Positions 34,064 to 40,183 of a stretch of DNA of 64,000 nt are shown here, piece by piece. The number at the start of each line of letters is the position of its first letter. Positions within the stretch are counted from its first letter, which is position 1. Made by a program: the position numbers and the translations under genes. Under the pieces are notes generated by a model, which was not told the DNA's origin, made no database searches, and saw nothing but the letters and a program-made list of their open reading frames with translations. Where the stretch lies: assembly GCF_011742875.1 (NCBI RefSeq), contig NZ_JAAQTL010000001.1, positions 372,001 through 436,000 on the forward strand, in the 5' to 3' direction. The stretch is from Luteibacter yeojuensis. Lineage in GTDB: Bacteria > Pseudomonadota > Gammaproteobacteria > Xanthomonadales > Rhodanobacteraceae.

Positions 34064-35419
34064 ATGTCGAATGCCGCAGTCAACGCCGATTTCCTCTGGC
34101 AACGAGGCGCGTGGCGTGCCGACGAGACGGGGCTCGGCGTCGCCGGCACGCGCTTCGCCGCGGCGCAGGGTGTGACCGAGCGGATCGGCCGCTTCGTGTT
34201 GCCCGGCATGCCCAACCTGCATTCGCATGCGTTCCAGCGCGCGATGGCCGGGCTGGCGGAACGCCGCGGACCGGGCGAGGACAGCTTCTGGACCTGGCGC
34301 GAGACCATGTATGCCTTCGCGGAGGCGATCGATCCGGACGACCTCAAGGCGATCGCCACCCAGCTCTACGTCGAGATGGTGAAGGCGGGCTACACCCAGG
34401 TCTGCGAATTCCACTACCTGCACCATGGCCCGCGCGGCGTGCGCTATGCCGATCCGGCCGCGATGTCGCTGGCACTCATGGAGGCGGCTAGGGAGGCGGG
34501 CATCGGGCTGACGCTGTTGCCCGTGTTGTACATGAGCGGTGGCTTCGACGGGCGACCGCTGTCGGAGCGGCAGCAGCGTTTCCGCCACGACGTGGGAAGT
34601 TTCGTGAGCCTGCTGGAGCGCCTGGCGCCCCTGCAGGACGACATGTTCACCCTGGGCATCGCGCTGCATTCGCTCCGCGCCGTGCCGGAAGAGGCGATGC
34701 GCGCCTTGCTGGCGACCGGCGTCGCGAAAGGACTGCCGATCCACATCCATATCGCCGAGCAGATCGGCGAGGTGCAGGACTGCGTGGCCCTGCGCGGCGC
34801 CCGCCCCGTCGAATGGTTGCTTGACCACGCCGAGGTCGATGCACGCTGGACGCTCGTCCACGCCACGCACCTCACGGCGCAGGAGACCGATCGCGTCGCG
34901 AAGAGCGGCGCGGTGGCCGGTCTTTGCCCCACGACGGAGGCCAACCTCGGCGACGGCCTCTTCCCGCTGGCCGCTTTCATCGACGCGGGCGGCACGTTCG
35001 GCATCGGCTCGGACTCGCACATTTCCGTCTCGCCGGTGGAGGAACTGCGCTGGCTGGAGTACGGCCAGCGCCTCGTGTCGCGGCACCGCAACGTCGCCGC
35101 GCGCATGGCGGAAGAAAGCGTCGGCACGGCGTTGTGGCAGCGCGCCCTCGACGGCGGCATCCGCGCCGCGGGCAGCGACATCGGCCATCTCGCCGAGGGC
35201 TCGCGGGCCGACCTGCTCGTGCTCGACGACCGCTCGCCGCTGCTCGCCGCGCGCGGCGAGGCGGACGTGATCGACAGCTTCCTGTTCGCGGGTAACACGC
35301 CACTGGTGCGCGACGTGATGGTGGGTGGCCAGTGGCGCGTGCGCGACTTCGCACATGCGGCCGAAGGGGCCGCGGCGCGGGCTTATCGCGCCGTGGTCGA
35401 AAAGCTGGCCGCGGCCTGA
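34064..35419 (+). CDS. hutF: Formimidoylglutamate deiminase
   Basis: Amidohydrolase of 451 residues that deaminates N-formimino-L-glutamate to N-formyl-L-glutamate and ammonia, the product then being used by HutG. Zinc ligands: LPGMPNLHSHAFQRAM, IHIHIAEQ, LVHATHLT, and the aspartate in GIGSDSHISVSPVEELRWLEY, a motif diagnostic of HutF. Starts after AGGACG. Acts directly after HutI, encoded on the other strand; this implies the five-step histidine pathway that passes through formylglutamate, as in Pseudomonas. Confidence 0.94.
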   Translation: MSNAAVNADFLWQRGAWRADETGLGVAGTRFAAAQGVTERIGRFVLPGMPNLHSHAFQRAMAGLAERRGPGEDSFWTWRETMYAFAEAIDPDDLKAIATQLYVEMVKAGYTQVCEFHYLHHGPRGVRYADPAAMSLALMEAAREAGIGLTLLPVLYMSGGFDGRPLSERQQRFRHDVGSFVSLLERLAPLQDDMFTLGIALHSLRAVPEEAMRALLATGVAKGLPIHIHIAEQIGEVQDCVALRGARPVEWLLDHAEVDARWTLVHATHLTAQETDRVAKSGAVAGLCPTTEANLGDGLFPLAAFIDAGGTFGIGSDSHISVSPVEELRWLEYGQRLVSRHRNVAARMAEESVGTALWQRALDGGIRAAGSDIGHLAEGSRADLLVLDDRSPLLAARGEADVIDSFLFAGNTPLVRDVMVGGQWRVRDFAHAAEGAAARAYRAVVEKLAAA

Positions 35420-35421
35420 CC

Positions 35422-35492
35422 TGTGGGAGCCGCTTCAGCGGCGCCGCACGTTTGCCCGCTGCCGCGGGATCGCCGCTGAAGCGGCTGCCACA
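35422..35492. repeat. REP pair (inverted), CTTCAGCGG subtype
   Basis: Arms 35422-35445 and 35469-35492 have the same TGTGGGAGCCGCTTCAGCGG unit as 20366-20447, with a G-for-C change in the second arm (GGCTGCCACA). It begins 2 bp after the hutF stop and ends 4 bp before the putative promoter of the asnB leader. Confidence 0.85.
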
Positions 35493-35495
35493 AGC

Positions 35496-35524
35496 TTGCG
35501 TCGGCGTCCGGATCGTGTTCTAGT
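35496..35524 (+). promoter_or_regulatory. Candidate promoter of the asnB leader
   Basis: TTGCGT at 35496-35501 and TCTAGT at 35519-35524, 17 bp apart. Matches are weak (3/6 and 4/6). If correct, transcription would begin near 35531, next to the leader ATG at 35532, so the leader mRNA would have almost no 5' untranslated region. Confidence 0.25.
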
Positions 35525-35531
35525 CGAGGCC

Positions 35532-35600
35532 ATGATTCGCATCGCCGCCAATAACGCCAATACCAATAATGCCCGGTACCTCGGGAGGGTCGGCGTGTAG
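35532..35600 (+). CDS. Asn-rich leader peptide of asnB (putative attenuator)
   Basis: 22-residue reading frame: MIRI, then AANNANTNNA (Asn codons at 35550, 35553, 35559, 35565 and 35568), then RYLGRVGV and TAG. Five Asn in eight residues (7-13), four of them AAT in a genome whose neighbouring genes strongly prefer AAC, is far from chance composition. A GAGG lies 2 nt before the ATG, too close to be an ideal ribosome site. The frame ends 31 bp before a perfect terminator stem, and asnB starts 29 bp after that stem. This is the arrangement of amino-acid leader peptides (trpL, hisL, leuL), here with the codon matching the product of the downstream asparagine synthetase. No expression evidence is available from sequence. 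Confidence 0.82.
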   Translation: MIRIAANNANTNNARYLGRVGV

Positions 35601-35646
35601 GCGGTTGCAAGCGAAACCACCGGCATACACGAAAGGCCCGCCCTCC
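35584..35646 (+). promoter_or_regulatory. Predicted antiterminator pairing of the asnB attenuator
   Basis: GGAGGG (35584-35589) pairs with CCCTCC (35641-35646), and after a bulged T, CGG (35591-35593) pairs with CCG (35638-35640): nine base pairs. The 3' partner is the first arm and loop of the terminator, so the two structures exclude each other. The 5' partner overlaps the last leader codons and would be covered by a ribosome at the stop codon. An upstream alternative, CCCG 35572-35575 with CGGG 35582-35585, or CGCCG 35543-35547 with CGGCG 35591-35595, gives the protecting 1:2 hairpin. Confidence 0.6.
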
Positions 35647-35664
35647 AGGCGGGCCTTTTTCTTT
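35632..35664 (+). terminator. Intrinsic terminator upstream of asnB (attenuator)
   Basis: Perfect 11-bp stem AAAGGCCCGCC (35632-35642) / GGCGGGCCTTT (35648-35658) with loop CTCCA and the tract TTTTTCTTT. It lies between the leader peptide stop and the asnB ATG (35694), so it can only affect asnB or the small leader transcript. Confidence 0.92.
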
Positions 35665-35693
35665 GGGTGCATTTTGATCAGGAGAATGAAGGC

Positions 35694-37364
35694 ATGTGCT
35701 CGATCCTGGGGATATTCGGACTGACCGCCGGCGACGACCTCGGCGCCCTGCGCGCACGGGCGATGGAGCTTTCGCAGCGGCAGCGTCATCGCGGCCCGGA
35801 CTGGAGCGGCGTGTACGTGGACCAGGGTGCGATCCTCGTCCACGAACGCCTCGCCATCGTCGACCCGGCCAGCGGCGCACAGCCCCTGCGCTCGGTGGAC
35901 GGCGAGCTGGCGCTGGCGGTTAACGGGGAGATCTACAACCATCGCGAACTGCGCGCCGCCAGCCACTACGCCTTCACCACCGCCTCCGACTGCGAGGTCG
36001 TCAACGCCCTCTACCGCGAGCACGGCACCGACTTCCTCCCCCGGCTCAACGGCATCTTCGCCTTCGCCCTCTGGGATGCGCGACGTCGGCGTTACCTTGT
36101 CGCCCGCGATCCCCTCGGCGTCTGCCCGTTGTACTGGGGGCACGACAGGGAAGGGCGCCTCTACGTCGCTTCGGAAATGAAATCGCTTGTAGGCGTATGC
36201 GCGGACGTCGCACCGTTCCCGCCGGGACACGTCTACGACAGCGAGCGCGGCGAAGCCGTGCCCTACCGCGTGCCCATCTGGCGCGACTACGATGCGACGC
36301 GGGGGGAACCGATGGAGCCCGCGACGCTCCGCGCGGCCTTCGAAGCCGCCGTGCACAGGCAGATGATGACGGACGTGCCGTACGGCGTGCTGCTCTCCGG
36401 CGGCCTGGATTCCTCCCTCGTCGCGGCGGTGGCCGCCGGTTTCGCGCGGCGCCGGGTCGAGGACGACGACAGCGCGGAGGCCTGGTGGCCGCGACTGCAT
36501 TCCTTCGCCATCGGCCTCGAAGGGTCGCCGGACCTGAAGGCCGCGGAGATCGCGGCGGCGGCGCTGGGTACGGTGCACCACGGGTTCCGCTACACGCTGG
36601 AGGAGGGACTCGACGCCTTGCCCGAGGTGATCCGGCACATCGAGACCTACGACGTCACGACCATCCGGGCCTCCACGCCGATGTTCCTGCTCGCGCGACG
36701 GATCAAGGCGATGGGCGTGAAGATGGTGCTGTCGGGCGAGGGTTCGGACGAGGTCTTCGGCGGCTACCTCTATTTCCACAAGGCGCCGTCCGCCCGCGCC
36801 TTCCACGAGGAAACCGTCCGCAAGCTGGACGCCTTGCACTATTACGACTGCCTGCGCGCGAACAAGTCCATGTCGGCCTGGGGCGTGGAGGCGCGCGTGC
36901 CGTTCCTCGACCTCGATTTCCTCGACACGGCCATGGGCTTCGATGCCGAGGCGAAGATGGTGGCCCGCAAGGGCATCGAGAAAGGCATCCTCCGCGAGGC
37001 TTTCGAAGGCGCGCTTCCCGCGGAGATCCTCTGGCGGCAGAAGGAGCAGTTCAGCGACGGCGTCGGTTACGGCTGGATCGACGGCCTGAAGGACCACGCG
37101 GCGAGGCAGGTATCCGACCGCGAGTTCGCCGCCGCGGCCTCGCGCTTCCCGCATAACACCCCGGCCACGAAGGAGGCGTATTTCTACCGCTCCCTGTTCG
37201 AGAAGCACTTCCCGGGCGAGGCCTGCGCGGCCACGGTCCCGGGGGGCAAGTCGATCGCCTGCTCGTCGCCCGCGGCCCTTGCCTGGGACCCGGCCTTCGC
37301 GGCGGCGGCCGATCCGTCGGGGCGGGCGGTGCGCGGCGTCCACCGGGAGGCCCTGGAAAGCTGA
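35694..37364 (+). CDS. asnB: Glutamine-hydrolysing asparagine synthetase B
   Basis: Makes asparagine from aspartate, ATP and glutamine. 556 residues, like E. coli AsnB. The start at 35694 places the glutaminase nucleophile as Cys2 (MCSILGIFG), preceded by AGGAG at 9 nt. The N-terminal glutaminase has RHRGPDWSG, HERLAIVDP, LAVNGEIYNH and SDCEVVNALY. The C-terminal synthetase has the PPi loop LLSGGLDSSL, the substrate region LSGEGSDEVFGGY, and EARVPFLDLDFLD. Preceded by an Asn-rich leader peptide and terminator, so probably controlled by transcription attenuation. Not in an operon with hutF (REP pair between). Confidence 0.97.
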   Translation: MCSILGIFGLTAGDDLGALRARAMELSQRQRHRGPDWSGVYVDQGAILVHERLAIVDPASGAQPLRSVDGELALAVNGEIYNHRELRAASHYAFTTASDCEVVNALYREHGTDFLPRLNGIFAFALWDARRRRYLVARDPLGVCPLYWGHDREGRLYVASEMKSLVGVCADVAPFPPGHVYDSERGEAVPYRVPIWRDYDATRGEPMEPATLRAAFEAAVHRQMMTDVPYGVLLSGGLDSSLVAAVAAGFARRRVEDDDSAEAWWPRLHSFAIGLEGSPDLKAAEIAAAALGTVHHGFRYTLEEGLDALPEVIRHIETYDVTTIRASTPMFLLARRIKAMGVKMVLSGEGSDEVFGGYLYFHKAPSARAFHEETVRKLDALHYYDCLRANKSMSAWGVEARVPFLDLDFLDTAMGFDAEAKMVARKGIEKGILREAFEGALPAEILWRQKEQFSDGVGYGWIDGLKDHAARQVSDREFAAAASRFPHNTPATKEAYFYRSLFEKHFPGEACAATVPGGKSIACSSPAALAWDPAFAAAADPSGRAVRGVHREALES

Positions 37365-37467: not shown

Positions 37468-38593
37468 ATGATCGAGACCAATCCGATCCTTGCGCAGATC
37501 GCGGACCTCAAGGGCCGCGTCGAGTCGCTTAGGGGGTATCTTTGACTACGCCGTCAAGAAAGAACGCCTAGAAGAAGTCAATCGCGAGCTCGAGAGCCCC
37601 ACCGTCTGGGACGATCCGAAGCGCGCGCAGGAGCTTGGCCGCGAACGCGCCCAGCTCGACACCATCGTCACCGGCATCGACGAGATGACCGCCGCGCTCG
37701 ACGATGCGAAGGAACTGCTCGACATGGCCGCCGCCGATGGCGACGAGGCCACCGTGCAGTCCATCGTGGAGGACCTGAACAAGGTCGACGCCCGCGTGAG
37801 CAAGCTCGAATTCCAGCGCATGTTCTCCGGCAAGCTCGACGCCGCGCCGGCGTTCGTCGACATCCAGGCCGGCGCCGGCGGCACCGAGGCGCAGGACTGG
37901 GCGGAGATGCTCTTGCGCATGTACCTGCGCTGGGCCGAATCGCGCGGCTGGAAGGCCGAGCTGATGGAAGTCTCCGGCGGCGAAGTCGCGGGCATCAAGT
38001 CCGCCACGTTCCGCGTCGAGGGCGACTACGCCTACGGCTGGCTGAAGACCGAAATCGGCGTGCACCGCCTGGTGCGCAAGAGCCCGTTCGACTCCGACAA
38101 CCGCCGGCATACCAGCTTCACCTCGGTGTTCGTGTCCCCGGAAGTGGACGACGACATCGAGATCGATATCAACCCCGCCGACCTCAAGACCGACGTCTAC
38201 CGCTCCTCCGGCGCGGGTGGCCAGCACGTGAACAAGACCGAGTCGGCCGTGCGTATCACGCACATCCCGACGAACACGGTCGTGGCGTGCCAGACCGAGC
38301 GCAGCCAGCACGCCAACCGCGATCGCGCCATGAAGATGCTGAAGGCGAAGCTGTACGAGCTGGAGGTGCAGAAGCGCAACGCCGAAAAGGACGCGCTGGA
38401 AGCGTCCAAATCCGATATCGGCTGGGGCAGCCAGATCCGCAACTACGTGCTCGACCAGTCGCGCATCAAGGATCTCCGCACCGGCATCGAACGTTCCGAC
38501 ACGCAGAAAGTGCTCGACGGCGATCTCGACGAGTTCGTCGAAGCCAGCCTGAAGGCGGGCCTCGAGGCCGGTTCCAAGCGCGTCGATGCCTGA
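37468..38593 (+). CDS. prfB: Peptide chain release factor 2, with programmed +1 frameshift
   Basis: Terminates translation at UGA and UAA. The reading frame begins at ATG 37468 ([18 protein letters not shown]), reaches an in-frame TGA at 37543, and continues in the +1 frame from 37544 ([12 protein letters not shown]) to 38593: coding join 37468-37542 and 37544-38593, 374 residues. The catalytic GGQ is in [15 protein letters not shown], and the UGA-recognition tripeptide SPF is in [11 protein letters not shown]. lysS follows 57 bp downstream, the common bacterial order. Confidence 0.96.
37531..37545 (+). other. RF2 autoregulatory frameshift site
   Basis: AGGGGG (37531-37536) is the internal Shine-Dalgarno-like stimulator, TAT the 3-nt spacer, CTT the slippery codon, and TGA (37543-37545) followed by C the poorly terminated stop. 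This is the canonical AGGGGG-TAT-CTT-TGA-C arrangement. When RF2 is scarce the ribosome shifts to CTT-GAC and makes RF2. Confidence 0.97.
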
Positions 38594-38650: not shown

Positions 38651-40183
38651 ATGACCGAAAACGCCAACGCCACAGCCTCCGCTACCGCAGCCGACGAGAA
38701 CCGCCTCATCGCCGAGCGTCGCGAGAAACTGAAAGCGCTGCGCGCGCAGGGCATCGCCTATCCGAACGACTTCAAGGTCGACAGTTTCGCGGGCGACCTG
38801 CAGGAGGAGTTCGCGGACAAGGATACCTGGACCGCCGAGGCCATCGACGCCGCGCCGCGCCGCGTGGCGGTCGCCGGCCGCATCATCCTGATGCGCGGGC
38901 AGGGCAAGGTCAGCTTCGTGCAGATGCAGGACGGCACCGGCCGCATCCAGCTCTTCGTGCACCAGGGCACCTTGGGCGAGGAGGGCTATGAGGCCTTCAA
39001 GCGCTGGGACCTCGGCGACATCGTCGGTGCGACCGGCGTCGTCATGCGCACCAAGACGGGCGAGCTTTCGATCAGGGTGGACTCGCTCCGTCTTCTGACG
39101 AAGTCGCTGCGTGGCCTGCCGGACAAGCACCATGGCCTCGCCGACGTGGAACAGCGTTACCGCCAGCGCTACGTCGACCTCATCGTCACCGAGGAATCGC
39201 GGCGCACCTTCGCGCTGCGTTCGAAGATCATCAGCCACGTGCGCCGGTGGCTCGAGGACGAGCCGCGCCGCTTCATGGAAGTGGAAACGCCGATGATGCA
39301 CGTGATTCCGGGCGGCGCCACCGCACGGCCGTTCACCACGCACCATAACGCGCTCGACATACCGCTGTTCCTGCGCGTGGCGCCGGAGCTCTACCTCAAG
39401 CGCCTCGTCGTCGGCGGTTTCGACCGCGTCTACGAGATCAACCGCAATTTCCGCAACGAGGGCGTGTCCACGCGGCACAACCCCGAGTTCACGATGCTCG
39501 AGCTGTACCAGGCCTATGCCACTTACCACGAGGTCATGGACCTCACCGAGGGCATGATCCGTTCGGCCGCTGCCGACGTCGTGGGCCATACGCGGATCGA
39601 GTGGGATGGCGCCACCGTGGACCTGGGCCCGGCGTTCCGCCGCTGGCGCATGGAAGACGCGGTGCTCGAACTCAATCCCGAGATCAAGCCGGGCGAACTG
39701 CGCGACCGCGCGGCGATGGCCGGGCATGCGAAGCGGCTCGGTATCCAGGTGAAGCCGTCGTACGGCTGGGGCAAGCTGCTGCTGGAGATCTTCGAGGCCA
39801 CCGTCGAACACACGCTGGTCCAGCCGACCTTCATCACCGATCACCCGGTGGAGGTTTCGCCGCTCGCGCGCGAAAGCGACACCGACAAGGGCATCACCGA
39901 CCGCTTCGAGCTGTTCATCAACGGCAAGGAGATCGCCAACGGCTTCTCGGAGCTCAACGACTCCGAAGACCAGGCGGCGCGTTTCCAGGCCCAGGTGGAC
40001 GCGAAGGACGCCGGCGACGATGAGGCGATGCACTACGACGCCGACTACATCCGTGCGCTGGAAGTCGGCCTGCCGCCGACCGGCGGCCTCGGCGTCGGCA
40101 TCGACCGCCTCGTCATGCTGCTCACCGGCGCGTCGTCGATCCGCGACGTGCTGCTGTTCCCGACCATGCGCCCCGAGGCCTGA
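38651..40183 (+). CDS. lysS: Lysyl-tRNA synthetase, class II
   Basis: Charges tRNA-Lys. 510 residues. N-terminal OB-fold anticodon domain ([20 protein letters not shown]) with an unusually Ala/Thr-rich leader ([12 protein letters not shown]). Class II motif 2 is in [18 protein letters not shown], motif 3 in [15 protein letters not shown]. Starts at ATG 38651. Follows prfB as in E. coli. Confidence 0.96.

Follow-up and report, generated by a model that had tools for sequence, protein, structure and literature searches.

The asparagine synthase gene asnB lies on the forward strand of the window (the whole stretch of DNA analysed, 64,000 nucleotides) downstream of hutF. The interval between the two genes holds a promoter-like pair, a short Asn-rich frame and an intrinsic terminator. 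The features, all on the forward strand, are as follows.

Ending at 35419, forward strand: hutF, formimidoylglutamate deiminase gene, upstream of the leader region.
35496–35524, forward strand: promoter-like pair, −35 TTGCGT (35496–35501), 17-nt spacer, −10 TCTAGT (35519–35524), seen in the sequence and with the same geometry in relatives.
35532–35600, forward strand: leader ORF MIRIAANNANTNNARYLGRVGV, 22 codons, ATG at 35532 and TAG at 35598–35600 (ORF list and relatives).
35550–35570, forward strand: regulatory codons AAT AAC GCC AAT ACC AAT AAT (sequence).
35572–35585, forward strand: 1:2 (protector or pause) hairpin, CCCGG (35572–35576) with TCGGG (35581–35585) (fold).
35583–35599, forward strand: segment 2, the 5′ strand of the antiterminator, with the leader stop codon at its end (alignment and fold).
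35626–35643, forward strand: segment 3, which forms the 3′ strand of the antiterminator and overlaps the terminator's 5′ arm (pairing in 80 sequences).
35632–35664, forward strand: intrinsic terminator, arms 35632–35642 and 35648–35658, U tract to 35664 (sequence, fold and 80 sequences).
35694–37364, forward strand: asnB, asparagine synthase B (glutamine-hydrolysing), 556 aa (NF006949, TIGR01536).

The asnB product scores 840 bits against NF006949 (cut-off 499) and 432 bits against TIGR01536 (cut-off 267.1). With this identity the match between leader codons and pathway product, proposed in an earlier sequence-only reading of this DNA, holds. The same reading had described a 22-residue leader rich in Asn codons upstream of asnB and a perfect 11-bp terminator between the two, and both are present. 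The leader ATG stands seven bases on from the −10 box. The terminator stem (AAAGGCCCGCC / GGCGGGCCTTT) closes a 5-nt loop and is followed by the U tract; the fold of 35601–35664 has a z-score of −3.23. The asnB ATG lies 29 nt past the terminator with AGGAG just upstream. Between hutF and the asnB promoter there is also an imperfect inverted repeat (35423–35495, GTGGGAGCCGCTTCAGCGGC ... GCCGCTGAAGCGGCTGCCACAAG) that resembles an interspersed repeat and, in most relatives, has no counterpart upstream of the leader. Downstream of asnB are prfB (release factor 2, 37468–38593), with its usual programmed frameshift site AGGGGGTATCTTTGACTAC near 37531–37549, and then lysS at 38651.

Codons 7, 8, 10, 12 and 13 of the leader encode Asn, five in seven residues, and four of the five are AAT. 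Asn makes up 2.16% of the 2499 codons of five window genes, and the chance of at least five Asn in eight codons is then 2.5e-7 per position. A strict detector (at least four Asn in nine codons, a stop and a terminator no more than 80 nt away) fires in the 64-kb window at this site alone (2 overlapping tiles of 508), and gave no hit in 127 reverse complements of upstream regions or 1270 shuffles. Such controls speak to composition and not to relatedness, so the comparison of relatives is the main argument. In the organism's own genome the Asn-run pattern has three other matches, of which two lie within long frames and the third in a frame of 65 codons; a reversed-pattern control has six.

Comparison across relatives had been named beforehand as the test of the sequence-only reading. 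It came out strongly in favour: three families of the order share the Asn codons and their frame, the position of the stop, the antiterminator, the terminator and the promoter. The search for AsnB in the organism's own family (f1) covered 147 genomes, and 96 rows among the matches listed were at least 76% identical to the window AsnB. We compared 81 loci at first, then 15 more plus one split gene, and all 97, with AsnB at least 74% identical, have an Asn-rich frame and a terminator before asnB. The criterion for this count, and for the 27 loci of the two sister families f2 and f3, was a best short frame with no fewer than three Asn among 12 residues, together with a terminator read from the sequence; at least three Asn in 12 residues were found in 124/124 clade loci across the three families. 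Seven leaders have just three (L070, L076, L079, L117, L279, L284 and L288), and the U tract is short (3–4 U) in many relatives. Repeat arrays, e.g. of GCCATGGATGGCCGGTA units, separate the terminator from asnB in several relatives (L066, L017, L022 and L030), giving a longer gap with the attenuator still intact; the array inserted in L066 shifts the leader 441 nt upstream. Sixteen own-family loci with a more distant AsnB (64–66%) were found, and none of the nine examined (AsnB 64–65%) has the leader.

A survey of the order sampled 160 genomes, and 97 of these, 22 from the own family and 75 from outside it, had an AsnB match at E up to 1e-150. Sixty of the 75 outside loci were examined, including all 25 of f2 and all three of f3. 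The leader is present in 24/25 loci of f2, the lone exception having a 65% AsnB, and in 3/3 of f3; the other 32 yielded one candidate, in genome G224 of f8. That candidate is also the only one among the 33 loci of the order with distant AsnB (60–71%; f2 contributes one). When f8 was examined more fully, 1/30 loci gave a candidate, two of the 30 having less than 350 nt upstream. This f8 locus, L244 (the same site as L128), carries the frame MFAIYNTINTTNNRLLRSAGSF (NTINTTNNR) and a terminator 75–144 nt upstream of asnB. Its promoter is TTGACA-N17-GATAGT and the ATG lies well behind it, so the start there is not leaderless.

Among the best 80 loci of named genomes, 28 have AsnB at 73% or above and 26 of these have the leader, its terminator here identified by computation. 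Carriers include Rhodanobacter, Dyella, Fulvimonas, Frateuria, Lysobacter and Luteimonas, as well as Stenotrophomonas, Pseudoxanthomonas, Arenimonas, Thermomonas and Xanthomonas. Some of these loci appear to repeat genomes of the family sets, so the counts are not additive. No leader was found in L167 (record title Rhodococcus, AsnB 77%) or L183 (a MAG, AsnB 76%). In the 52 more distant named loci the strict detector fired in L191 only; in L209, five of 12 residues are Asn, with no terminator seen. L191 is a 4.8-kb Rubrivirga MAG contig with the frame NLTNANRN and a strong terminator 97–166 nt upstream of asnB, a candidate for independent origin, transfer or misbinning. The strict detector caught 64 of the 81 first-examined leader loci, the 17 it missed being short in the U tract, long in the stem or poorer in Asn, and the tblastn step of its run placed 37 of the 60 short ‘order’ loci. 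An RNA model, R1, searched against 229 genomes of the class (four of which have AsnB at E up to 1e-150) scored high at the window's own site only (93.1 bits). The other matches listed (best 36.4 bits) were taken for G+C-rich terminators. The model is weak on sister families (26 bits for the f2 site in G164) because it is too tied to the own family.

The repeats behave as codons. The last 22 codons of 108 leaders (81 of f1, 24 of f2 and three of f3) contain 661 Asn codons, 331 AAC and 330 AAT, against six AAG and no AAA for Lys, while the other two frames contain two and 11 AAN codons. AAT, described in the sequence-only reading as rare-type for this GC-rich genome, is enriched: AAT to AAC is 330 : 331 in the leaders vs 10 : 44 in the five window genes. 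A frame-blind scan that took the first ATG or GTG behind the promoter found the Asn frame, open to the stop, in 97/98 loci; the promoter or start was not found in 10 of the 108. By the promoter rule the leader is 17 to 97 codons long (median 39) and the N-termini also vary; what stays constant is the run of Asn codons and the 3′ end that pairs. Searches of NCBIfam and Pfam with four leaders matched no family. On strong codon and frame evidence the leader is probably translated, and it has no Shine-Dalgarno sequence.

The way in which translation would begin is indicated by the promoter. The −35/−10 spacer is 17 nt in 86/106 loci, and the distance from the −10 hexamer to the leader ATG is 6–7 nt in 90/106 (93/98 in the frame-blind scan). 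The promoter score is 7.41 vs 2.33 for shuffled sequence, with starts picked for best score. RNA polymerase starts transcription at a usual spacing from the −10 box, and with a gap of 6–7 nt this puts the start no more than about two bases from the leader ATG. The leader mRNA is therefore probably leaderless, as judged from promoter position. The sequence-only reading had listed a poor ribosome site as a weak point and allowed for a leaderless start. The latter part stands, with no Shine-Dalgarno and leaderless geometry in most relatives. The former does not: the absence of the site is a conserved trait, and it is no weakness because the ATG sits about where transcription should begin.

Pairings were examined on an alignment, A1, of 80 rows (L003 left out). 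RNAalifold run on A1 itself proposes the terminator and a GYGTA/TACRC helix. The terminator is paired in 99.1% of cells, with 51 double-change cells vs 11.2 in shuffles. For the 2:3 antiterminator 97.6% of cells are paired with 16 double-change cells, and four pairs show double changes vs 0.3 in shuffles (0/500 shuffles), statistics which, like all shuffle statistics on A1, ignore kinship among the sequences. With the partner of segment 2 slid by +2 columns, the double-change cells rise in number (30 vs 16) but pairing falls far (55.6% vs 97.6%). The conserved register is 35583–35585 with 35641–35643, 35587–35591 with 35635–35639 and 35594–35599 with 35626–35631. A competing pairing of 35584–35593 with 35638–35646 had been proposed from the sequence; it exists (GGAGGG, 35584–35589, with CCCTCC, 35641–35646, 6 bp) but is not the register that has been kept, the conserved antiterminator being longer (35583–35599 with 35626–35643). 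The 1:2 hairpin is paired in 65.1% of cells in one register. Its covariation is 0.271 vs 0.136 in shuffles, while pairs with double changes are not above shuffles; the hairpin is weakly supported.

Pairing between segments 2 and 3 is stronger for cognate than for permuted partners, both in 81 loci (−27.19 vs −25.54, 0/5000 permutations) and in 108 (−25.15 vs −22.71, sd 0.28, 0/5000 as low). Yet of the exchanged partners in the 81 loci, on average 35% pair better than the cognate. Segment 2 of f1 or f2 pairs with segment 3 of f3 equally well as, or better than, its own partner, something of which G+C-rich arms are capable. Between families the two arms have been replaced jointly. GCCCGC is found in 81/81 f1 arms, and CCCGCATC in 18/24 f2 arms, opposite GATGCGGG or near-copies of it in the leader.

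Folding with a ribosome in place is consistent with a switch. With a stall at the last clustered Asn codon and the RNA folded as far as the terminator 5′ arm, at least six 2:3 pairs form in 79/81 loci (median 14). In the window, assuming a footprint of 11 nt, a ribosome stalled at codons 12–13 would lie over the 5′ strand of the 1:2 hairpin as well. When the ribosome is placed on the stop codon, the window RNA folds only the terminator; segment 2 ends in the stop, a geometry that agrees with the earlier proposal that a ribosome there would cover the 5′ partner of the antiterminator. In each of the five cases folded for the window, the lowest-energy structure is the complete terminator. Because it is more stable than its competitor once finished, the switch has to be a kinetic one that acts during transcription.

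Three other explanations bear on the same features. The terminator might merely end upstream transcription, or be a constitutive partial one, with the Asn-rich frame incidental. Terminators precede many bacterial genes, and the same-strand gene hutF finishes at 35419. We consider this improbable: the promoter sits between hutF and the terminator, the Asn run is in frame with the promoter-placed start in 97/98 loci with almost no Lys codons, and 97.6% of cells keep segment 2 paired to the terminator arm, a pairing for which a plain terminator has no use. Still less credible is a reading of the AAY repeats as an RNA or DNA binding motif (a protein or tRNA site, T-box-like) instead of codons. The repeats are indeed conserved and A-rich within a G+C-rich region. 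They recur, however, at intervals of three and in a single frame (two and 11 AAN in the others, 108 loci), their third positions are T or C freely and almost never a purine, and their number and spacing vary; in 13 relatives and in the window region alike, no Rfam family, T-box included, attains its gathering score.

An equally remote prospect is that the leader RNA or peptide works mainly in trans, as a small RNA or functional peptide, with control of asnB secondary. Precedent comes from Sinorhizobium meliloti, where passages of PMC7298713 report that RNA and peptide of the trp attenuator act in trans. The asnB leaders vary in length and N-terminus and conserve the run of Asn codons and the 3′ end that pairs, a pattern that argues against a mainly trans-acting product, as does the lack of any NCBIfam or Pfam match for the four leaders searched. 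A trans role may exist in addition to cis control.

The anatomy of the locus and its conservation instead argue for a ribosome-mediated, Asn-specific transcription attenuator of asnB, a reading to which we give a probability of roughly 0.9 from comparative sequence evidence. Relatives, coding frame and pairings all support the classical leader-peptide attenuation put forward in the sequence-only reading, which is very probably right. RNA polymerase would start at or beside the leader ATG, as the promoter position suggests, and a ribosome would begin on the leaderless RNA. When charged Asn-tRNA is plentiful, this ribosome should pass the Asn codons, reach the stop and cover segment 2. Segment 3 would then pair with segment 4 and, from the geometry, transcription would terminate about 130 nt in. 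When charged Asn-tRNA is scarce, the ribosome is expected to stall on the Asn codons and leave segment 2 free. Comparison and folding indicate that free segment 2 could pair with nascent segment 3, and polymerase would read into asnB. If the leader is not translated, the 1:2 hairpin should favour termination; this is the weakest step of the model.

The gene content of the genome fits such a sensor. It encodes AsnRS (620.4 bits, cut-off 342.6) and one AsnB-like protein at the search threshold used; asnA was not found, nor was gatB, which is present in 0/13 genomes of the genus. With AsnRS present and asnA and gatB absent, AsnB looks to be the only biosynthetic supplier of the Asn that charges its tRNA, and Asn from AsnB, or taken up, should set the charging of Asn-tRNA. 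In the order, gatB is absent from the AsnB-bearing genomes of f1, f2, f3, f6 and f8 that were searched. It is present in the single genomes searched of f4, f7 and f9, families with no genome among the AsnB matches of the 160-genome survey. The numbers are small and suggestive of two alternative routes to Asn-tRNA within one order.

A wider proposal is that Asn attenuation is an unrecognised leader-peptide class, leaderless, present in several families of one bacterial order, evolved more than once and tied to AsnB-only genomes (AsnRS, no asnA, no GatCAB). L244 of f8 and L191 from the Rubrivirga MAG are the candidate independent origins. We hold this proposal tentatively and think it somewhat more doubtful than probable. 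If attenuation at asnB is real, asparagine joins the list of amino acids whose supply is gauged by ribosome stalling on a leader, and the control of asnB would be accounted for in families with well-studied soil, plant-associated and clinical genera. It would also provide a natural, widely conserved system for attenuation beginning on leaderless RNA, and suggests a ready reporter of Asn-tRNA charging.

The well-known ribosome-mediated attenuators of amino-acid operons in Proteobacteria are those of trp, his, phe, thr, ilv and leu. The asnB leader resembles them in its product-codon ORF, terminator, mutually exclusive antiterminator and a stop that lets the ribosome cover segment 2; it differs in its Asn codons, in having a single glutamine-dependent synthetase as target and in being probably leaderless. 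T-box riboswitches stand before asparagine genes in Firmicutes. Like them, the asnB leader would sense tRNA charging and control termination before an asparagine gene; it differs in that a T-box makes direct contact with tRNA and can do without a leader ORF. Rfam leader families score below their gathering scores in the window region (Thr 22.4/55, Leu 17.6/50 and Trp 17.1/41 bits), no T-box is among the 16 Rfam matches up to E 5 in window positions 34800–36300, and 13 relatives gave no family at gathering score. The sequence-only reading named no established Asn attenuator upstream of a glutamine-dependent synthetase, and we recognised none in searches of the openly licensed literature; an earlier mention elsewhere or in supplements may exist. 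The main text of PMC2965389, a survey of premature terminators, contains neither ‘asparagin’ nor ‘asnB’; the same holds for PMC1183508 and PMC1262725, and PMC4117421 contains neither ‘asparagine’ nor ‘Asn’. A Xanthomonas asparagine synthase appears in a qRT-PCR table of PMC3771888. The trp attenuator RNA of S. meliloti (rnTrpL) is described in passages of PMC7298713 as leaderless, starting at the ATG of its leader ORF. The asnB leader is like rnTrpL/peTrpL, as those passages present it, in that its RNA is predicted to begin at the leader ATG, and unlike it in that the S. meliloti system has Trp codons, trpE as target and trans functions, of which none is known for the asnB leader. Provisionally, we regard the asnB leader as a new specificity, for Asn, of the classical attenuation mechanism.
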